DNA of 46,951 bases from a virus. Made by a program: the position numbers and the translations under genes. Below are positions 1,814-21,706 of this stretch, piece after piece; position 1 is the stretch's first letter; each line of letters begins with the position of its first letter. Where the stretch lies: positions 1 through 46,951 of the IMG/VR virus record IMGVR_UViG_3300028044_000015; one strand, 5' to 3'. Below the pieces are notes generated by a model, which was not told the origin of the DNA, did not search any database, and saw only the letters and a list, made by a program, of their open reading frames with translations.

Positions 1814-1821
1814 CAAATATA
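1814..1821 (-). promoter_or_regulatory. TATATTTG -7 box / left 8-bp target duplication
   Basis: On the minus strand this reads TATATTTG, matching the Bacteroidota -7 consensus TAnnTTTG, and lies 4 nt before the start of the tail-terminator gene. The identical 8 bp (CAAATATA on the plus strand) occur at 5939-5946 on the other side of the mobile unit, so it is also the proposed left target-site duplication. Confidence 0.5.
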
Positions 1822-1857
1822 GTTATTTTAGACTTACCAAACAATAGTTTTAGAGTA

Positions 1858-1877
1858 GCCTAAATTTATTTTTAGGC
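1858..1877. other. Perfect hairpin near left end of the transposon
   Basis: GCCTAAA and TTTAGGC form a perfect 7-bp stem around a 6-base loop. It lies just beyond the terminator of the restriction-modification genes and about 36 bp inside the proposed element end. It could block read-through or mark the transposon end. Confidence 0.4.
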
Positions 1878-1881
1878 AAAG

Positions 1882-1906
1882 AAAAACCCAACCTTACGGG
1901 GCTGGG
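1882..1906 (-). terminator. Rho-independent terminator after the specificity gene
   Basis: On the minus strand CCCAGCC and GGTTGGG form a 7-bp stem with one G-U pair and a 6-base loop, followed by TTTTTCTTT. It lies 62 bp after the stop of the specificity gene and gives the transposon cargo its own transcript end. Confidence 0.65.
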
Positions 1907-1967
1907 CTTTCAATGTTTTAAGCAAATAAATTAGGCAATGATATACTTTAGTGTACTAAGCCCGATT

Positions 1968-3101
1968 TTAACGGGTTGTTTGGTTGCTTTTCTTTTTGGC
2001 CGTGCTAAAGTCGCTAGGGCTTTGTGCCATCTTTTCTATGGCTTTACCAAAGTTTACATCTTCGCCAGTGTCGTATTTTTCGGCCAGTTCTGAATCGGAT
2101 AAGCCCTTTGTCTCTTTCTTGTAGCTTTTGGGCTTAATATCCATTACATCCACTTCCAGTGACGATGAGTAAGGCAATGATTTGATGTAGTTCTCCATAA
2201 AATTAAAGTCGGGTTTGCCGTTTAAAGAAGGCAGGCTAATGCAAGATTCGGACATTCTATCTTTATGCCATTTTCGCCCATAATTAAAGCGATAGCGTTC
2301 TTTTTCTATAACTGTTGCAATAAAAAGTGCACTAAAGACATTCATCTCAAACTTTGGGTACAATACGTTAACATCATCTGATGCCCAAAACGGTACTGGT
2401 TGGTAAAATGCTTCCGCTACCGAGCCATTATAGTTAACGCTAATGGTATTACCGTCATGTATCGGTAATTGCCCTATAAAATCTCTCCAACCGTTGTTTG
2501 AATCAATGGCTGCAACAAAAGGGGTATTACCCACTTCAAAATGTTCCTTGGTTAAACGTTTGCCTTTCTTTATTTCAAAAAAGTCTTTAATCCTAAACGA
2601 TGTAAATTCACATTTTTCAAGAAACAAAGGCCGACCCATACAAGATGAATCTGGCACGTTTGTAGCGTTAATGCCTACAAGCCCAATTTCGATAGGCATT
2701 TTATCAGGAACTAATAAATCCTTTAGAGTTCGATTAGCCTGCCTGCCGTAATTATACTTGTATTTGTTTGCCCTAATACAATAGCAATAAAAGAGTAACT
2801 CCAAATCAGTCATTTGTTGTAATGGGGTCAGAACAAATACATGAAATCCAGTGTAGTATGGTTTTGGTTGCAAAAAAGAAGAAAGTACCGAGCCACCTAA
2901 AGCTACAGATATTGTTTTTGCTGGGTTTTCGGCAAACAAATCACTTCTTTTAACAATTGCCGCTATGCCATTATTCTTTTCCGTCCTAGATACGTAGTTA
3001 ATGGCATCCTCATTATCAGCAGGGCATTGCTCTAGGTTTATTAACTCTAGGCTGTTGCCATACTGAATGCGGAACAAGGTATGTAGTGGTACTAACTTCA
3101 T
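1968..3101 (-). CDS. DNA specificity subunit (S), BcgI-B-like
   Basis: This 377-residue protein has two similar halves, each looking like a target-recognition domain of type I/IIB S subunits. The first begins near FRIQYGNSLE and contains a YVSRTEKNNG segment; the second begins near FEIKKGKRLT and contains VAAIDSNNGW. It starts one base after the stop of the methyltransferase-nuclease gene, as expected for an operon partner. Its job would be to give sequence specificity to the fused nuclease-methyltransferase. The C-terminal 50 residues are lysine-rich and unlike a TRD. Two TRDs fit a bipartite target. Confidence 0.75.
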   Translation of the reverse strand: MKLVPLHTLFRIQYGNSLELINLEQCPADNEDAINYVSRTEKNNGIAAIVKRSDLFAENPAKTISVALGGSVLSSFLQPKPYYTGFHVFVLTPLQQMTDLELLFYCYCIRANKYKYNYGRQANRTLKDLLVPDKMPIEIGLVGINATNVPDSSCMGRPLFLEKCEFTSFRIKDFFEIKKGKRLTKEHFEVGNTPFVAAIDSNNGWRDFIGQLPIHDGNTISVNYNGSVAEAFYQPVPFWASDDVNVLYPKFEMNVFSALFIATVIEKERYRFNYGRKWHKDRMSESCISLPSLNGKPDFNFMENYIKSLPYSSSLEVDVMDIKPKSYKKETKGLSDSELAEKYDTGEDVNFGKAIEKMAQSPSDFSTAKKKSNQTTR

Positions 3102-3102
3102 G

Positions 3103-4932
3103 TTACTTCAAATATAATTCAGTAAACAACACATACTCTTTTATCGTTTTGATAAAATCATCTTTTGATAGATTGGAATAGTCAGTTTCCATATATGCCT
3201 CCGCACACCACTCATCGGCAGCCGTTACCCTTTTAGTGACAGAAAGCCCAGCTATATTTTTGCGGTTAACATAACTGTCAACCCATTGCGCCCTTATTGA
3301 TTCCCATTTATCATAGGCATCAACCCTGCCTTTATGCTTCCGCTTTTCAAAACCATCGATTTTCCAGTACCCAAAATATGTTTCCTTATTAGGTGGATGA
3401 GGCACGTGTGCCCTTAGTACAATGATTGCTGTCACAACGCCATTGTCGGTATTGTAGAACAAATCGTCTGGCATGGACATAACGGCCTCTAAAGTGTGCT
3501 TTTCCAAAAGCTGCCGCTTTAATTCAAGGGTCTGTTTCTTTGCCGATAATACCCTCTCCATCGGTATAATTGCCACACAAAGCCCGTTTCTCTGTAAACA
3601 TTCCATGTTGTTGAGCACAAACACAAACTCGTTTATTCCGTTAACCTTGTCATTAGGGTACGGTGGGTTGAGCATACCAACCGTAGGCGCAAACTCCTTT
3701 ATAGTTTCTACTACTTCGGGTTTTAGGCAATCCTCGTGGATAATGTTTGATTTGCCGTCTTTATGTATGTACATATTCGTGGCGGCCAATGCGTAAATGT
3801 GAGATTGGTACTCCACACCGATAAGCTGGTGCTCTTTGATATGCTTTATTTTTGTTTCGTCACCCTTGGCATCTATCACCATAGCACGCATTGCGCTGAT
3901 TAGAAATCCAGCCGTGCCCGTACAGTTATCATAAACCACGCTATCCTTGTCCACAAATGCCAAATCACAGAAAAGTTGTGTTATGTGGGGAGGTGTAAGC
4001 ACTATTCCTAAACTAGAATCAGCATTCGCATAACTTAAAAACTCTACGTAAAGCTGCCCCAAAACATCAATATACTTGTATGTCTGTAAGTAGCCGTTAA
4101 CATTCTTGTCTATATCGTCAATAAGTTCCGCAAGTATGTTTTGCTCTGTATCGGGGTTCTTTTTTAACGATAAAGTGGCATCCGACCTAATGAAGCTAAA
4201 TTGATTGTTTAGGTTCTCAACTTTCTTTTGGGGCAATGACTTTTTTAGTTCCAAAACAACCGTATCAACCAACCTGTCAGCTAAATCCTGCGGCTCTTCA
4301 ATCTCGTTATAAGACTTGTAAAAAGCCTTGTTGTCCAAGGCAATAAGTACACTGCTTAAAAACAATCCTCTTTGACTTGCTAATACCTTGTGGCTTTCTA
4401 GTTTGTTGTTCAATTTCCTAGAATAGTCAATTAAGGCATAATAATCTTGGCGGTGCTTTTGCGGGCTACCTAAGTAACTTTTTAGATAGCTTTCATAATC
4501 CAGCAACTTGTTCCCATAATCCATTTCAGTGGCCTTCGGCTCACCGTTTAGTTGCAAATAATGAGAAACCCTCAACTCTCTTTCCGTTTGTCCGCTAACG
4601 GCTATTGCTAAGACATCATATTCCTTTGAAAGAAACGAGGCATAAAGAATAGCACCGTCAACGGCAAAATCGGCATACCTATCAAGCGTTTTGCTTTGGT
4701 GCTTCGTTGCTTCGGCCTTACATTCAACAACAATCAAAAAATCGGGGCACTCCTTAAACGAAATGATAAATTCGGGATACCCCCTGCCACCACCTTTTTT
4801 GGAAGCATACTTTAATAGCTTGGCTATTTTTGGTATATCCGACATCTGTTTCTCTACGTGCACCTTTTTATAGGTGTTCGTGGCAAGGAACGCTGATACC
4901 AAATCTTCTGTTTTCCTTTCGTTAGCACGCAT
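3103..4932 (-). CDS. Fused restriction nuclease / N6-adenine methyltransferase, BcgI-A-like
   Basis: The N-terminal 130 residues look like a type I HsdR-N/PD-(D/E)XK nuclease: D64 followed by E70-C-K72 in PDFLIVVECK. The middle and C-terminus form an N6-adenine methyltransferase with motif I near DNCTGTAGF (334-342) and motif IV NPPY (421-424). A single chain with nuclease and methylase plus a separate S gene is the layout of BcgI-type IIB systems, which cut on both sides of a bipartite site; a type I-like relative is the alternative. The ATG lies inside the end of the transposase gene (11-nt overlap), so expression is probably coupled to transposase translation. Confidence 0.75.
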   Translation of the reverse strand: MRANERKTEDLVSAFLATNTYKKVHVEKQMSDIPKIAKLLKYASKKGGGRGYPEFIISFKECPDFLIVVECKAEATKHQSKTLDRYADFAVDGAILYASFLSKEYDVLAIAVSGQTERELRVSHYLQLNGEPKATEMDYGNKLLDYESYLKSYLGSPQKHRQDYYALIDYSRKLNNKLESHKVLASQRGLFLSSVLIALDNKAFYKSYNEIEEPQDLADRLVDTVVLELKKSLPQKKVENLNNQFSFIRSDATLSLKKNPDTEQNILAELIDDIDKNVNGYLQTYKYIDVLGQLYVEFLSYANADSSLGIVLTPPHITQLFCDLAFVDKDSVVYDNCTGTAGFLISAMRAMVIDAKGDETKIKHIKEHQLIGVEYQSHIYALAATNMYIHKDGKSNIIHEDCLKPEVVETIKEFAPTVGMLNPPYPNDKVNGINEFVFVLNNMECLQRNGLCVAIIPMERVLSAKKQTLELKRQLLEKHTLEAVMSMPDDLFYNTDNGVVTAIIVLRAHVPHPPNKETYFGYWKIDGFEKRKHKGRVDAYDKWESIRAQWVDSYVNRKNIAGLSVTKRVTAADEWCAEAYMETDYSNLSKDDFIKTIKEYVLFTELYLK

Positions 4933-5884
4933 CGTAGGCTATTTTGCTTGTTAGCTTTTTGTAAGTCAATTTGGTTGAGTTCAACAATGAATAATCGAAA
5001 CGCTCGTTAACGCTTTCTTTTCGTGCATTATATCTAAAGGCGAACTCGTCACAATACCTCGTTAGGTGTTTCGGGCTTACGTGGTGGTAGATACCGTAGA
5101 TACCCCTTTTAAGGTGCGACCAAAAGTTCTCTATACCGTTATTGTGAAAGCCACCCCTAACATACTCATTTTCCTTGTGGTTTAGAACAACGTGGCTGTG
5201 GGTAGTAGCCAATCCCTTGTAAGCAACCCATTCATCGGTGATTATTATCGCACCCTCTGCAACCATCCTTTTTATTATCGGCTTGATGGTGCTGGCCTTG
5301 GTATCGGTAATAACGGCAGTCCTTACCTTGCCACCCGATTGCAACAATCCAAACACGGGCGTTTTATCCTTTACGCTACGCCCTTGGCTTTCAACAACCT
5401 TTTTGTCCGCATGGCGGTTTTTGTGCTTGCCACCGATAAATGTTTCATCGGCTTGAAAACATCCGTCCTGTTTAATATCTGCATCTTTGGGACTGAACGC
5501 TTGCCTAATCCTACTCAACATAAACCAAGCTGTTTTTTGTGTCACGCCAAGGTCGCTTGCCAACTGATGCGAACTGATACCCTTTTTGTGCAGCGAAAAT
5601 ATATAGATTGCGATAAACCATTTACGCAAAGGTACGTGAGAACCCTCGAACATCGTACCTATGGTTACGGTGTAACGTTGTTTGCAATCCCCACATTTGT
5701 ACATTCCTTTGAACACGCCTTTTGTTTTTAGTGTGTATGCTTTGGTGCATTTGCAATATGTGCAAGTTGGCGTTCCGTTCCAAATCTTTTGTTCAAGATA
5801 ACTTCTGCAAGCGGCATCGTCTGGCAGTGCTGCAAGCATGGTGGTCAAGGAGTTGAACTTTGCGATATTTTGTGTAGCTTCCAT
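4922..5884 (-). CDS. IS1595-family (ISXO2-like) transposase
   Basis: This 320-residue protein shows an N-terminal zinc ribbon (C41, C44, C64, C67), a helix-turn-helix-like stretch near 103-127, and a DDE-type catalytic domain with D146 (ADETFIGG), D217 (ITDEWVAYKG) and the IS1595 signature around N249-E252 (NGIENFWSHLKRG). Length and motif order match intact ISXO2-like transposases, so it is probably active. Its last codons overlap the start of the restriction-modification gene by 11 nt, an unusual link between a transposase and cargo. The 54-base leader runs up to the right end of the element. Confidence 0.9.
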   Translation of the reverse strand: MEATQNIAKFNSLTTMLAALPDDAACRSYLEQKIWNGTPTCTYCKCTKAYTLKTKGVFKGMYKCGDCKQRYTVTIGTMFEGSHVPLRKWFIAIYIFSLHKKGISSHQLASDLGVTQKTAWFMLSRIRQAFSPKDADIKQDGCFQADETFIGGKHKNRHADKKVVESQGRSVKDKTPVFGLLQSGGKVRTAVITDTKASTIKPIIKRMVAEGAIIITDEWVAYKGLATTHSHVVLNHKENEYVRGGFHNNGIENFWSHLKRGIYGIYHHVSPKHLTRYCDEFAFRYNARKESVNERFDYSLLNSTKLTYKKLTSKIAYDAC

Positions 5885-5938
5885 TGGTAGTAGCTTTGTG
5901 GTTTGCTACTAAAATATACAACTAATTTTTGGTACAAC

Positions 5939-5946
5939 CAAATATA
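5939..5946 (-). promoter_or_regulatory. TATATTTG box / right 8-bp target duplication
   Basis: This is identical to 1814-1821. It lies between the stop codon of the upstream glycosyltransferase (TAA at 5947-5949) and the proposed end of the transposon, and on the minus strand it could act as a -7 box for the transposase. It is the proposed right copy of the target duplication. Confidence 0.5.
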
Positions 5947-6681
5947 TTATTGCCATAAATTATTCGTTTCCACTATGCTATACTGTGGCATAAACGGGTG
6001 CGGTTGCCCTAACTGCCAATCGTCTATCTCTTTTAGCCGTTTATCCATGTCCTTTATATTGCCCCGTGCGCTGCTGTTTCGTAGCTTCATTGCTATGTCA
6101 TTCCTAACGTAACTCATGTGGTGCATCAGTATCGGTACTTCCTTGCACCTACCTTGTGGGCTTGTACCTCTAGTCGGGTCTACGTATATTCCAAAACCCC
6201 CAATATTGCACGATGTGATTTTGCAAATAAACGGCACAAAGTAGTTTTCTAAAGGCTCTAATCGGTAATTAGGCTGTTTGAAGTACGTAACCAATTTACA
6301 ATAGCTAGTGTCTAGATTGTGCTCTAATACAAACGCTTTGCCAGCTTCAAAGTCACTAGGTACGTAATACTCATCGGTATCAATGTGCAGGAAATGCGTA
6401 CAACCTAAGTCCTTTGCAACCATGCTACCTTTAAACCGCTTGGCTATCTCGTTATGCGTACCGCCTTTCTGTATGTCGGGGGTGTAGTAGCTATGCGTTA
6501 CCTTTGAGTACTTAGCCGATAACGCTTGAACGCAAATAGATGTATCGGGGTTTAGTTCGCCAAAGTTGCTACGGTCTTGCCACACTAAAATAATGTGGTC
6601 AACAAACGGATAAATTAGGCTTATAGACTTATCTAAGTGCTCTAATCCGTCCCATACGTTGTAAACTGCTGCTAGTTTCAT
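5947..6681 (-). CDS. Glycosyltransferase (GT2/GT92-like)
   Basis: This 244-residue protein has a GT-A-like start (MKLAAVYNVWDGLEHLDKS), a metal-binding DxD-type segment in HIDTDEYYVP, and a run of aromatic residues typical of sugar transferases of the GT2/GT92 type. It would move a sugar from a nucleotide donor to an unknown acceptor. It overlaps the preceding small gene by 4 nt and is the last gene of the sugar cluster before the transposon. Confidence 0.7.
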   Translation of the reverse strand: MKLAAVYNVWDGLEHLDKSISLIYPFVDHIILVWQDRSNFGELNPDTSICVQALSAKYSKVTHSYYTPDIQKGGTHNEIAKRFKGSMVAKDLGCTHFLHIDTDEYYVPSDFEAGKAFVLEHNLDTSYCKLVTYFKQPNYRLEPLENYFVPFICKITSCNIGGFGIYVDPTRGTSPQGRCKEVPILMHHMSYVRNDIAMKLRNSSARGNIKDMDKRLKEIDDWQLGQPHPFMPQYSIVETNNLWQ

Positions 6682-6824
6682 TCTTTAGGTATATTTTTAT
6701 AATCACCATACGGTAAATGCCGTTCCCCTTGTGCTGCATAAATTACTTTCAGTTCAGCACATAAGGCATCTTGCTCTTTAAGTATTTCGCCTAACCTTTT
6801 TCGTATTTCGGTTTCTCTATCCAT
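6678..6824 (-). CDS. Small helical protein, 48 aa
   Basis: The reading frame is open further upstream, but ATG 6822-6824 is the better start because it lies just beyond the stop of the methyltransferase gene (6826). The 48 residues are charged and helical (RKRLGEILKEQDALCAELK), suggesting a short coiled coil. The function is unknown. It is coupled by a 4-nt overlap to the glycosyltransferase. Confidence 0.55.
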   Translation of the reverse strand: MDRETEIRKRLGEILKEQDALCAELKVIYAAQGERHLPYGDYKNIPKE

Positions 6825-6825
6825 A

Positions 6826-7443
6826 TTATTTCTTTGAGGGTCTGCCACGTTTTTTAGGTGCTGGTGTTTCGGTTTGTTGTTTATCTCTATTAGTGCTTTC
6901 AAACGGCAAAGTGTAAAAGTCACTTTCGCTTGGAAACACATCGCTAATCTTACGCAATACCCCGTACACGTTCCAGCCATCGGTTACGTTACCCATTGCA
7001 GCATGTTCGCCAACTTCAATTAGTTCATATCCTGCGACCTTGCAAAGTTCGGCATAAAATTCTTTTGTAAGGTAGTGGAAACCATGCCCGTGCCAGTTGT
7101 TTACCTTTGGGTTTTCGCTTATAATCAAGCCGCCAATCTTACACCCGTTGTGCTTGTTCAACCAACAATTGTAATAATTGCTAACGTGTTCGCTAGTACC
7201 GAAATCGGTAACAATGTCGCACGGCTCTAAATTCAAGATAGTTGACAAATCTACTATCTCGCTATCGTATTCCCCGTTTGCATCAAGGCTATAATGTTCA
7301 AATCCTTGTTTAGTGTAGTAGTCTTTAGCTACTCCCATTGGCTCACAATCGAAGTAGGTGTTTTGGCTACCTAATTCGAGCATTGTTTTAGCGTTGCCTT
7401 TGTGCTTTTGCACTAAATTGTTTGAGTGTGTAGTTACTCCCAT
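6826..7443 (-). CDS. SAM-dependent methyltransferase with basic AT-hook-like tail
   Basis: This 205-residue protein has a Rossmann-type start (TMLELGSQNTYF) and an acidic motif (HYSLDANGEYDSEIVDL), followed by DIVTDFGTSEHV, as in class I methyltransferases. The C-terminus is unusual: after residue 180 it becomes Lys/Pro/Arg-rich and ends KKRGRPSKK, an AT-hook-like motif that could contact DNA or nucleoprotein. The substrate is unknown. Its position among glycosyltransferases suggests sugar or glycoprotein methylation. Confidence 0.65.
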   Translation of the reverse strand: MGVTTHSNNLVQKHKGNAKTMLELGSQNTYFDCEPMGVAKDYYTKQGFEHYSLDANGEYDSEIVDLSTILNLEPCDIVTDFGTSEHVSNYYNCWLNKHNGCKIGGLIISENPKVNNWHGHGFHYLTKEFYAELCKVAGYELIEVGEHAAMGNVTDGWNVYGVLRKISDVFPSESDFYTLPFESTNRDKQQTETPAPKKRGRPSKK

Positions 7444-7446
7444 AAA

Positions 7447-8115
7447 TTAAATTGATAACAGGCATACGTCAGCACCCCTGTCTAGTTTGATTAACTGATT
7501 GTTATACTCGAATTCAAGCCCTACCATAAAGTAGTACATAAAAAAGGTTTCATGCCCTTGCAAGATAGCTATATTATTCCTGTTTATCAATAGGCTTGCA
7601 ACCGTTTGGTCGTGCCTATGGTCGTCCCAACTGCCAACAAAAGAACCGTTTAAAGCACCTTCGTAATACTGGTCAATAAAGTCTTTAGCCTTATCTCGGT
7701 TAAGTCCCATAACACAAGCCATAATCATAGGGGCTTGCAGTTCCATTTCGGTTATGCTGTAAATTGATTTGCAGCTATCGTTACAGTACGAACCAATGGC
7801 ATAGGTGTAGTTGTCAAAGAATGCATACCCCGTGTCTTGTATGTGCTCAAATAGCTTATCTAAAGGGGCTACGCATTGCACCACGCTATCTAACCAAAGG
7901 ATATTATCGTACCCCTCATCAAATGCCTTTTTAATGGCATAGGCTTTGAACGCATACGGGTTATCTTTGTGGTTTGGGCAACCTAGTTGCTTTTCGCTGG
8001 TGTAGCAAATATATTCGCCTGTATAGCCTTTAGCGATTAGGCTTTGCTTTTGCGCTTTAGCGGCTGCTATGTATCGGGGGTTGCCTTTAGCAAATGTTAC
8101 TATTACGTTTCTCAT
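7447..8115 (-). CDS. Glycosyltransferase-like protein, 222 aa
   Basis: The start is placed at ATG 8113-8115 (MRNVIVTFAKG), in an ATGA overlap with the preceding gene. A longer frame reaching 8178 would overlap that gene heavily. The protein has a GT-A-like pattern with an acidic motif in NILWLDSVVQ and a helical KAYAIKKAFDEGYD before it, resembling nucleotide-diphospho-sugar transferases of capsule and LPS loci. The acceptor is unknown. Confidence 0.6.
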   Translation of the reverse strand: MRNVIVTFAKGNPRYIAAAKAQKQSLIAKGYTGEYICYTSEKQLGCPNHKDNPYAFKAYAIKKAFDEGYDNILWLDSVVQCVAPLDKLFEHIQDTGYAFFDNYTYAIGSYCNDSCKSIYSITEMELQAPMIMACVMGLNRDKAKDFIDQYYEGALNGSFVGSWDDHRHDQTVASLLINRNNIAILQGHETFFMYYFMVGLEFEYNNQLIKLDRGADVCLLSI

Positions 8116-8711
8116 ATCGCTGCAAAAATTAGGTTTTCTCCGTTGCGGTGTATTTCGGTTAATTCGTAGCCAGCGCAATACTCAATATACTTTTTGGGGT
8201 CAATTCCGTTGTACTCTACGCATACGCATTTTACATCGGTAAGGTCTATTTGGCTCAACACTTCAAAATCCATGCCCTCAATATCAATATTGATAAAGTC
8301 AAACGTGCGCCCGTTCATTATGCTCTTAACCGTATCGCAAGGCACTTGCACCTCTGTAAATTGTTCGTTAATCCATCGCTGTTTCTCGCTTTCGATTATC
8401 GTACTGACTAAGCTAACATCTTCACCGCCTAAATGCGTGCCGCTTTCATAAAACGTAATAAAGCCCTTGTACGGGGCTATCGCTACATTAACTACTTCTA
8501 CCCTGTCATTGTCTTTATAAAGCGTTTGCGCTAGGCTTGCAGCGGTTTCGCTGGCATCTACTAACATACCACTCCAGCCGTTTAAAGCAATAGCACGGGT
8601 GTTGCTAAATGTTGCCCCATCATTGCAGCCTAAATCTAAAAACGTACCGATGTAGTGTTCGCCAAAGTAGTCTAATATTACTTGCTGCTCGTTGTTTTGT
8701 GAATACCTCAT
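8112..8711 (-). CDS. FkbM-type methyltransferase
   Basis: This 199-residue protein matches the FkbM pattern: TFLDLGCNDGATFSNT (motif I), GMLVDASE (motif II), VNVAIAPYKG and FINIDIEGMDFEVL, the last being the hallmark DIEGxD segment. FkbM enzymes typically O-methylate sugars or polyketides. Both ends show 4-nt ATGA overlaps with neighbouring glycosyltransferases, which argues for joint action on one glycan. Confidence 0.8.
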   Translation of the reverse strand: MRYSQNNEQQVILDYFGEHYIGTFLDLGCNDGATFSNTRAIALNGWSGMLVDASETAASLAQTLYKDNDRVEVVNVAIAPYKGFITFYESGTHLGGEDVSLVSTIIESEKQRWINEQFTEVQVPCDTVKSIMNGRTFDFINIDIEGMDFEVLSQIDLTDVKCVCVEYNGIDPKKYIEYCAGYELTEIHRNGENLIFAAI

Positions 8712-9265
8712 TTGCCTTGTGTGCTTATTGCTGCTTGAAAATCGTAATGGTACATATCTTTGTTAATATACACCTCTGTTTTAAGTAACGGGCGTAGCCT
8801 GTTTGAATAGTCCGCATCTTCACCGCTATTAATACCCCTCGGAAACTTAACCCTTAAAGCGAGTTCCCGTTTAACAGGGCAAAGGTGGTTTATAGTCCGA
8901 TAATACACCCCGTTCAATTCGTACCAACTGTCAAACGTATTACTAATCTTAAAGTTGTGGCGGTCTTTGCCATTGGTCGTCATGTAACCGTCAAAGCCCA
9001 CGCAATCGGGTTTACTTTCAATAGCCTTTAGTAGTTCACTAACGTAGTAACTCGGCACTAGGTCGTCATCGTCTATAAATACTATGTAGTCGCCTTTAGC
9101 CTTGTCTAGTAACTCGTTGCGCTTATCGCTTATTTTCTTTTGGCGGTTGTCAATCGAAACTAACACCTCCGCATTAATATCGCTTTGCATATCTAGTGTA
9201 GCCAATAACCTAGCTAACAAGTGGCTACGGCTTTCGATTGAGCATATTAAAATTGATAGCTTCAT
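8708..9265 (-). CDS. GT2 family glycosyltransferase
   Basis: This 185-residue protein starts with MKLSILICSIESR, then VLVSIDNRQK and YIVFIDDDDLVP, the donor-binding Asp cluster of GT-A family 2 enzymes. The later NSGEDADYSNRL segment fits the catalytic ED motif of this family. It is short but looks complete, and it is coupled by 4-nt overlaps to genes on both sides. Confidence 0.8.
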   Translation of the reverse strand: MKLSILICSIESRSHLLARLLATLDMQSDINAEVLVSIDNRQKKISDKRNELLDKAKGDYIVFIDDDDLVPSYYVSELLKAIESKPDCVGFDGYMTTNGKDRHNFKISNTFDSWYELNGVYYRTINHLCPVKRELALRVKFPRGINSGEDADYSNRLRPLLKTEVYINKDMYHYDFQAAISTQGK

Positions 9266-9939
9266 AGCCCGTAATTATTTAACCTCCGTTTGGTGTGTAG
9301 CGTTTGCCCTTGTGTCCACATACCATTAGAACGGTTGTAAGTGTTATCGCTTTGCCCTTGTAGTTCCTTTGTCGGGTTACTAGGGTGCAAGTGTGGGAAC
9401 TTTAAATCGGGTGCAAATACTAAACCGTTTATTATCCTCGCTACATGGTACAAGTCCTCATCGCAAAACATTGATTTGTATTCGGGGTGGAAGAAATACC
9501 CAAACCGATTGTAAAACGCTTTAGTCATTATCGGTATGGTTAACACGGCTACGCCCATCGGTTGCAAACAGTCGTCAACCTTTAGTATTTGCTCTAGGTT
9601 AATATCCATTTTATCCGCTATCAACCTATCCCAATGTTTCGGGCAATCAAAGTCGTCACTAAGGTAAATCAGTATATTGCCTGTGGCGTACTTAGCCGCT
9701 GCATTAGTCGCACCCACTACATACCCATCGCTTGTATTCTCACGTACTATGTGATGCGCCCCAAATAACCGTACATAGTCATCGTATCTCGGCTCGTCTA
9801 AGTCCAATGATAAAATATGTTCAATGGTTATCTTTGATGTACCGTTGTTGTGGGCTTCGCTTTTAGCTAGCCAATTAAGGTAGTTAGCGTGCGCCATTTC
9901 GGGGCGACTGCGGCTGGGGTGTATTAGGCTTATTCTCAT
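9262..9939 (-). CDS. GT2-like glycosyltransferase
   Basis: This 225-residue protein starts MRISLIHPSRSRPE, a common beginning of GT2 enzymes. NAAAKYATGNILIYLSDDFD carries the donor-binding Asp cluster and FCDEDLYHVA the likely catalytic acidic motif. ATGA-type overlaps on both sides place it firmly in the sugar operon. The transferred sugar is unknown. Confidence 0.75.
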   Translation of the reverse strand: MRISLIHPSRSRPEMAHANYLNWLAKSEAHNNGTSKITIEHILSLDLDEPRYDDYVRLFGAHHIVRENTSDGYVVGATNAAAKYATGNILIYLSDDFDCPKHWDRLIADKMDINLEQILKVDDCLQPMGVAVLTIPIMTKAFYNRFGYFFHPEYKSMFCDEDLYHVARIINGLVFAPDLKFPHLHPSNPTKELQGQSDNTYNRSNGMWTQGQTLHTKRRLNNYGL

Positions 9940-10340
9940 GCAAATGCTTTTTTTACTTGACTATCTAATTTATCATTGCCAGTCATTAGCCAATCTATTC
10001 TTTCTTTCCAATGCTCCCATAAGTTCTGTATAAAATATTCAAACGTGGCAATTGGGTAGCTATTATTAATTATGCTAGTTGATATATTGCCAATAATCCT
10101 ATTTGGTTTTTCAGCAAAGTATTTTACATTTGTTGGGCAAAACGGATAATCCATTAAATATTTACTTGTATCTATTCCCGAAATAAAACCACCGAATAAC
10201 CCTGTTTTTACCGTTGGAGAATAATATGCAATATCGGTAAAGTTATGCAAGTATCTAGGCTTTGCAAGTGATAGCATATGAACTACATAAGCACCGTAAG
10301 CCGCTTGTTTAGTTTGCCAATCTTGTATGTCTAGTTTCAT
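9936..10340 (-). CDS. Hypothetical protein in sugar cluster, 134 aa
   Basis: I do not recognise this 134-residue protein. It is rich in aromatic residues (NFTDIAYYSPTV, IATFEYFIQNLWEHW) with no signal peptide or clear membrane segment. It is coupled to its neighbours by 4-nt overlaps, so it probably belongs to the same pathway. Its base composition appears somewhat more AT-rich than its neighbours by eye. Confidence 0.6.
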   Translation of the reverse strand: MKLDIQDWQTKQAAYGAYVVHMLSLAKPRYLHNFTDIAYYSPTVKTGLFGGFISGIDTSKYLMDYPFCPTNVKYFAEKPNRIIGNISTSIINNSYPIATFEYFIQNLWEHWKERIDWLMTGNDKLDSQVKKAFA

Positions 10341-20794: not shown

Positions 20795-21026
20795 GATTGA
20801 TTTTCCTTTGCGGTACGTAATCGGGTGTACCGTATATCGGCTTAACTTTTGGCAATACCGTTTTATCTGCAATTTTAGGGCTTAATGGATGTCCGTTGGG
20901 TATCACTTTAGCCGTTGCCCTGTTGCGTTCCCTAATGGCTTCTAAATTGGCTCGTTGCCGTGCTGCCTTTTCGCTTATGTCTTTGCAGCGTTTAGCGTTG
21001 TATTCTTGTTTCTGTTCGGGTGTCAT
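20787..21026 (-). CDS. Basic protein with GHP motif, 79 aa
   Basis: The N-terminal half is a charged helix (QRANLEAIRERNRATAK); then IPNGHPLSP, a motif shared with the next gene product, and a basic C-terminus. The shared motif suggests common ancestry or a common partner. It overlaps the methyltransferase stop by one base. Confidence 0.6.
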   Translation of the reverse strand: MTPEQKQEYNAKRCKDISEKAARQRANLEAIRERNRATAKVIPNGHPLSPKIADKTVLPKVKPIYGTPDYVPQRKINHG

Positions 21027-21706
21027 TAGTCGATGGTTAGTTGAATGTTAGTTAATTGTTTTGGAGTAAATAGTTTGGGGTGCGCCTGTACGTGTTCTTT
21101 AAAACGCTTAATTGCGGCTTCGTAATAATCCTTATCAAGTTCGCAACCTACAAAGTCAAACCCCAACTCCCAGCACGCTATCATGATACTTCCGCTGCCT
21201 ACGTGGGTGTCTAGTATGGTGTCGCCCTCTTTGGCATAGTTTTGGAGTAGCCATTTGTAAAGCGCAACTGGTTTTTGAGTGGGGTGGATGCGTTCGGTAA
21301 GGTTTGGGTTTTTATCAAACTTTTTTGCTGTTGATTTAAAAGATGTGTAAGCCATTTCGAATTGTGCAAACGATACTTTTTTATTAAATCCCTTATCCCA
21401 CAATAGCCAGCAACTTGAATTTCTTGCCATATTTTCAATAAAATGATTTGCACCCCAAACAATTTGATTTTTCGAAATATTAAATAGCTGATTAAAATAT
21501 AATATAGAGGGGGGTATTTTATCCCAGGTTTCGGGTTTATAATTTGATGGCTTATCTCCTTTTCTCCTACCCATATTATGATTCACCCCAATCCCGTAAG
21601 GCGGGTCCACAATAGCCAACTCAAAGTGTTTATCTGAATATCGTGCCATCAAGCACATGTTATCCTCGCAAGTAAATTCTATCCGTGGATTTTCGCTTAA
21701 TATCAT
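21026..21706 (-). CDS. DNA N6-adenine/N4-cytosine methyltransferase
   Basis: This 226-residue enzyme has motif IV DPPY at 34-37, HPTQKP at 141-146 and the SAM-binding motif I region D166-S173 (DTHVGSGS) toward the C-terminus. That order fits the beta-class N6/N4 methylases. Its likely substrate is phage DNA, protecting it from host nucleases or marking it. It is coupled by ATGA to a 28-residue membrane protein upstream. Confidence 0.9.
   Translation of the reverse strand: MILSENPRIEFTCEDNMCLMARYSDKHFELAIVDPPYGIGVNHNMGRRKGDKPSNYKPETWDKIPPSILYFNQLFNISKNQIVWGANHFIENMARNSSCWLLWDKGFNKKVSFAQFEMAYTSFKSTAKKFDKNPNLTERIHPTQKPVALYKWLLQNYAKEGDTILDTHVGSGSIMIACWELGFDFVGCELDKDYYEAAIKRFKEHVQAHPKLFTPKQLTNIQLTID

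Follow-up and report, generated by a model that had tools for sequence, protein, structure and literature searches.

A BcgI-like type IIG restriction-modification system carried by an IS1595-family transposon in a phage genome

The IS1595 family of insertion sequences was reportedly defined by Siguier in 2009. Members of this family that carry passenger genes are known, such as tISCpe8, a lincomycin resistance element, and MTnSag1 (tISSag10), both of which can be mobilised by conjugation (PMC5704250). The movement of restriction-modification (R-M) systems has also been linked to insertion sequences, in complexes where the R-M genes lie as a composite between IS copies or form part of co-integrates (PMC3031569; PMC4176335). 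A further likeness is offered by Tn7-like transposons with defence cargo, which spread defence genes (PMC8649781); they use a different transposition machinery and are not IS1595 elements. Among the R-M systems themselves, the BcgI-type enzymes (type IIB or multimeric type IIG) are encoded by two separate genes, one for a fused nuclease-gamma-methyltransferase and one for a specificity (S) subunit (PMC3874165).

The element described here was found in viral DNA of 46,951 nucleotides (IMG/VR record IMGVR_UViG_3300028044_000015, positions 1 to 46,951; the whole of this stretch is called the window). It resembles tISCpe8 and MTnSag1 in combining an IS1595 DDE transposase with passenger genes, but it carries an entire type IIG R-M system and resides in a phage. 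In contrast to the IS-flanked R-M complexes, a single transposase and one pair of terminal inverted repeats (TIRs) enclose the R-M genes. The likeness to BcgI-type systems is drawn from the genes, which match the PADLOC type IIG and Specificity_II models, and from a predicted fold of the type IIB/IIG kind; the difference lies in the transposon that carries the system. A phage-carried pair of BcgI-like RM and S genes, Sau42I, is also present in Staphylococcus phage phi42, a temperate phage, and there are relatives of this system. It is about 30% identical to that of the window, and a transposase is absent from the phi42 record, which is short (2980 bp). The literature searched, which did not extend to the paper that founded the family, yielded no account of an IS1595 element with R-M genes, and a prior description is possible. 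For one carrier, the ends, the target duplication and the empty site have now been resolved, and the same type of carrier with R-M cargo occurs in bacterial genomes and in several viral contigs, which provides a concrete route by which R-M systems may enter phages and pass between replicons.

We consider it very probable that this 4021-bp unit on the minus strand (Table 1) is a passenger-carrying IS1595 element (tIS) and that a BcgI-like type IIG R-M system moves with it in its entirety. The original prediction of an intact ISXO2-like transposase that overlaps by 11 nt the start of a fused nuclease-methyltransferase gene, followed by an S gene, was borne out in all these parts. The transposase matches the Pfam models PF12762 (DDE_Tnp_IS1595, E=7.2e-46) and PF12760 (2e-10), as well as the NCBIfam model NF033547 (transpos_IS1595) with 215 bits against a cut-off of 75; its gene ends at 4922 and the R-M gene starts at 4932, and the two cargo genes are recognised by PADLOC as REase_MTase_IIG and Specificity_II. 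An ISXO2-like DDE transposase with a zinc ribbon, together with TIRs and an 8-bp target site duplication (TSD), places the element in the IS1595 family, and the position of the R-M and S genes between the TIRs, within 1934-5954, makes it a tIS.

Table 1 Features of the R-M-bearing transposon and its surroundings in the window, and four similar elements found elsewhere
Feature	Location	Position or length	Strand	Basis or remarks
Left copy of CAAATATA, phage-owned, TAnnTTTG-like, upstream of the tail-terminator gene	Window	1814..1821	-	Proposed earlier as a flanking repeat; present in L003 and L004
Terminator-like hairpin with T run, phage-owned	Window	1880..1908 (about)	-	Spotted by eye; conserved in L003
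TSD, left copy, ATAAATTA	Window	1926..1933		Exact 8-bp repeat directly outside the TIRs
IS1595-family transposon with R-M cargo	Window	1934..5954	-	TIR and TSD; absent from L003 and L004, present in L002/L005
TIR, S-gene end, GGCAATGATATACTTTAGTGTACTA	Window	1934..1958	+	19/25 positions match the opposite end
S subunit, 377 aa, two Methylase_S stretches	Window	1968..3101	-	Pfam PF01420; PADLOC Specificity_II
Type IIG fused nuclease (PD-(D/E)XK-like) and gamma N6-adenine methyltransferase, 609 aa	Window	3103..4932	-	PADLOC PDLC03608; Pfam N6_Mtase
IS1595-family transposase, 320 aa, zinc ribbon and DDE domain, ORF intact	Window	4922..5884	-	Pfam PF12762, PF12760; NCBIfam NF033547
TIR, transposase end, GGCAATAATATATTTGGTTGTACCA (minus-strand reading)	Window	5930..5954	-	TIR search
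Glycosyltransferase-like phage gene, 3' end interrupted	Window	5947..6681	-	L003 comparison; last codons and stop now in the element
TSD, right copy, ATAAATTA	Window	5955..5962		Exact 8-bp repeat directly outside the TIRs
R-M-bearing element L108	Bacteroidetes MAG	4917 bp		TSD AAAAATTT
R-M-bearing element L145	Gammaproteobacteria MAG	3622 bp		TSD TTTTTTTA
R-M-bearing element L146	Candidatus Enterocola	3980 bp		TSD ATAAAATT
R-M-bearing element L168	Viral contig	3581 bp		TSD AATCTTTT

The ends of the element are formed by imperfect TIRs (GGCAATGATATAC... and GGCAATAATATAT...) that begin with GGCAAT, and most other IS1595 elements that were delimited have similar ends. When both end regions were shuffled 2000 times, no shuffle reached the observed TIR beside an exact 8-bp duplication (maximum 14 matches, as compared to 19/25). 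The earlier view of the R-M genes as passengers of an IS1595-type transposon that makes an 8-bp duplication was right. The empty site is preserved in a related phage, L003, of which the tail gene protein is 98% identical to that of the window phage and the genome stretches share about 88-93% DNA identity. In L003 a single copy of the 8-mer TAATTTAT is present where the window has two around the element, and the sequence (...GAAACGAATAATTTATTTGAGTAAAACATTGG...) runs from the end of the glycosyltransferase-like gene via a hairpin terminator to the tail gene. On the minus strand of the window this sequence is interrupted (...GAATAATTTAT / GGCAATAATATATTTGG ... AAAGTATATCATTGCC / TAATTTATTTGCTTAAAACATTG..., with slashes at the breaks), and joining the window flanks without the element gives the L003 sequence across the junction. 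The transposase, R-M and S genes are all missing both from L003 and from L004, a more distant phage relative. The existence of the mobile unit and its insertion into the phage are well supported, in line with the suggestion that it had entered this phage lineage. Two further records, L002 and L005, contain the element in a phage record that is 99.97-99.99% identical to the window; they almost certainly represent the same phage, which leaves one distinct insertion known for the exact element. A foreign origin was also sought in the base composition, and no difference in GC content appeared between element (0.407) and phage (0.408).

The original prediction had drawn the boundaries differently, using the 8-mer CAAATATA as the target duplication, assigning the terminator to the element and expecting a 12-nt gap between the glycosyltransferase stop and the tail-terminator ATG after deletion. 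A unit bounded by these 8-mers, with the terminator and the region upstream of the tail gene included, can practically be dismissed. The 8-mer does occur at both places (1814-1821 and 5939-5946) and IS1595 elements do generate 8-bp duplications, but the left copy and the terminator are present in the element-free L003, the left copy also in L004, and the right copy lies inside the terminal region of the element itself. Moreover, CAAATATA is frequent in the window (10 occurrences, against a mean of 4.8 after shuffling), the search gave no pair of TIR and TSD for the element besides the one at 1934/5954, and in L003 the glycosyltransferase stop and the tail-gene ATG are separated by 108 nt that include the terminator. 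The expected empty site in a related phage thus exists, at 1934/5954 instead of 1809/5947. It is also very unlikely that the transposase belongs to a simple IS that landed beside a resident phage R-M system, with the R-M genes outside the mobile unit. Such a history would suit the observation that no IS1595 transposase is annotated in the six inspected plasmid regions with R-M homologues, so that R-M genes also travel alone, yet it conflicts with the location of both R-M genes inside the TIRs and the duplication, with the lack of all three genes in L003 and L004, and with the recurrence of this arrangement within TIRs in four other elements with an exact TSD.

For the tIS, the following course of events can be envisaged. 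Recognition by the transposase would involve the two GGCAATnATATA inverted repeats (1934 and 5954), and insertion would produce an 8-bp duplication. The element landed two codons short of the stop of the glycosyltransferase-like gene, co-oriented with the late operon and with the phage terminator downstream of it. The label of this gene stems from the earlier reader's naming, and no Pfam or PHROGs match was found for it. Its last two codons were replaced, and the protein now ends in ...NNLWQ, with a stop codon from the element's TIR, as compared to ...NNLFE in L003. An insertion near the gene end, co-directional and upstream of the phage terminator, should therefore cause little damage and be readable by phage transcription, which would proceed through the element and stop at the phage's own terminator. 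The start codon of the R-M gene overlaps the end of the transposase gene, and translation of both is therefore probably coupled. The element may still transpose today, and its genes may be expressed together. Any benefit could lie in shielding a modified genome from rivals or host DNA, or in simple selfish spread. Read on the minus strand, the left CAAATATA is TATATTTG, a short distance ahead of the ATG of the tail-terminator gene; as a putative promoter element it fits the TAnnTTTG motif of Bacteroidota, and an inverted repeat adjoining CAAATATA was examined in the sequence and found unsupported.

The phage record contains genes for a terminase, a portal, a head protease, a tape-measure protein, a primase-helicase and recombination functions. 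A domain search of this record, which may be incomplete, detected no tyrosine integrase or serine recombinase; a lytic lifestyle of the carrier is a possibility, and lysogenic addiction becomes a weaker explanation because of this result. A search of a phage collection gave no relatives of the tail gene, and the two best transposase matches were in short unannotated records. Apart from the transposon cargo, the phage encodes a solitary DNA methyltransferase (21026-21706, phrog_67). In the late region beside the tail genes (5947-9939) there is a run of glycosyltransferase-like and methyltransferase-like genes, which, with functions judged by eye from the translations, may serve virion decoration.

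The R-M protein matches PADLOC model PDLC03608 (REase_MTase_IIG) with 512 bits over most of its length. Like in BcgI, an N-terminal nuclease is fused to a gamma N6-adenine methyltransferase, and a separate S protein carries two specificity domains. Invariant positions in an alignment of 26 relatives, also followed in one of 92 sequences, are P53, E70 and K72 of the nuclease and D335, G339 and NPPY 422-425 of the methyltransferase; the window protein keeps all of them and is predicted to have both activities. Its AlphaFold model (pLDDT 88, pTM 0.82) gave type I M subunits as best Foldseek matches, and the type IIB/IIG enzymes BsaXI, BpuSI and DrdV were matched over longer alignments, with a high whole-chain rmsd. 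The activity predicted for the R-M and S proteins together is methylation and cleavage at a bipartite site that contains adenine.

A search for transposase-R-M units elsewhere, as the original prediction proposed, did reveal similar units. Among the fetched loci, and excluding the window and its near-identical record, an IS1595 transposase adjoins related R-M genes in ten cases. In six of these the R-M genes lie between inverted repeats, and exact 8-bp TSDs were found in four of the six (L108, L145, L146 and L168; Table 1), where near-perfect TIRs and the duplication surround transposase, R-M and S genes. The other two, the viral contigs L174 and L006, have matching TIRs, and a matching 8-bp duplication was not found there. 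The right end of L131 (Mucilaginibacter) is the same as that of the window element and its left side is cut; the transposase is incomplete or cut by the contig end in L139 and L065 and decayed in L118. One TIR type is common to the window, L108, L131 and L006, which have a nearly identical repeat at their ends. The start of the cargo overlaps the transposase end or lies within a few bases of it in the window, L006, L131, L139, L168 and L174. The R-M-bearing relatives are found in bacterial genomes and viral contigs alike. Among the viral contigs, L006 lies close to a gene for a major head protein, L168 adjoins phage replication genes and L174 an integrase gene. In 396 genomes from one phylum, the survey gave one close R-M relative, already in the set, and five distant ones, with no new unit. 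The L006 element starts where the preceding phage gene ends, directly behind its stop codon (L006:4955-4960), again a nearly harmless site.

The transposase of L006 is the nearest R-M-linked one, with 64% identity to that of the window, and in the transposase tree the two form a pair (support 92/53) that groups with L007 and L008 (100/99); for L007 and L008, whose transposases come closest after that of L006, no clear TIR pair was found. The cargo of L006 is a single-chain R-M-S protein (HSDR_N, N6_Mtase, Methylase_S) that is only about 23% identical to the window R-M protein. Related transposases thus carry different R-M systems, because the TIRs of the window and L006 are nearly the same and the cargo is far diverged. 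The nine transposase-linked proteins are dispersed over a tree of R-M proteins (92 rows), with at least eight label changes on well-supported branches according to a quick method, a number that is approximate since some unlinked rows are short contigs in which a transposase could be missed. Because of this scatter, IS1595 elements appear to have captured such R-M systems repeatedly, which is the simplest reading, and repeated loss of the transposase is another possible cause of the same pattern. The chances are about even that IS1595 transposons are, more generally, a recurrent vehicle for DNA methyltransferases and R-M systems, with a first cargo gene that is often translationally coupled, with cargo swapped between close transposases, and with delivery of whole R-M systems to integrase-free phages.

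Two views on what the system does for its carrier are both compatible with the tIS. The phage may benefit, if the system modifies phage DNA, cuts unmodified DNA of host or rivals and is kept by selection; the intact catalytic residues, the position in the phage late operon in its reading direction and the L006 element near a major head protein gene point this way, as does the weaker case for lysogenic addiction in a phage where no integrase was found. We regard this as conceivable and rather doubtful, since the insertion is known from one phage lineage only and the phage already possesses a solitary DNA methyltransferase. The system may also be a pure hitchhiker, in which case the transposon would ride in the phage from host to host and the R-M genes would serve it in cellular genomes, a proposal that could equally well prove right or wrong. 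It agrees with the presence of R-M-bearing relatives in both bacterial genomes and viral contigs and with the unrelated cargo of other viral-contig IS1595 elements, but no copy of the exact element was found in a cellular genome.

The wider cargo of IS1595 elements was surveyed in about 25 viral-contig elements with TIRs and an exact TSD, a set that was drawn with a transposase query and without R-M queries, is limited to relatives of one transposase and omits two doubtful cases. A gene for a DNA methyltransferase or for restriction is present in seven of these (L009, L022, L024, L033, L045, L073 and, less surely, L010), including an MvaI/BcnI endonuclease in L033, and other cargo comprises DUF3800 and P63C proteins. 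The L022 element (7908-10339, exact TSD) combines a D12-class adenine methyltransferase with a PD-(D/E)XK nuclease gene; this is another R-M-like cargo, unrelated to the first. A 5.9-kb element in L010 (7868-13813) encodes a 1443-aa protein with helicase/ResIII and methyltransferase-like domains, and DUF3800 is the main cargo in L072 (7886-10024), L068 (7922-10062) and L053 (7935-10667).
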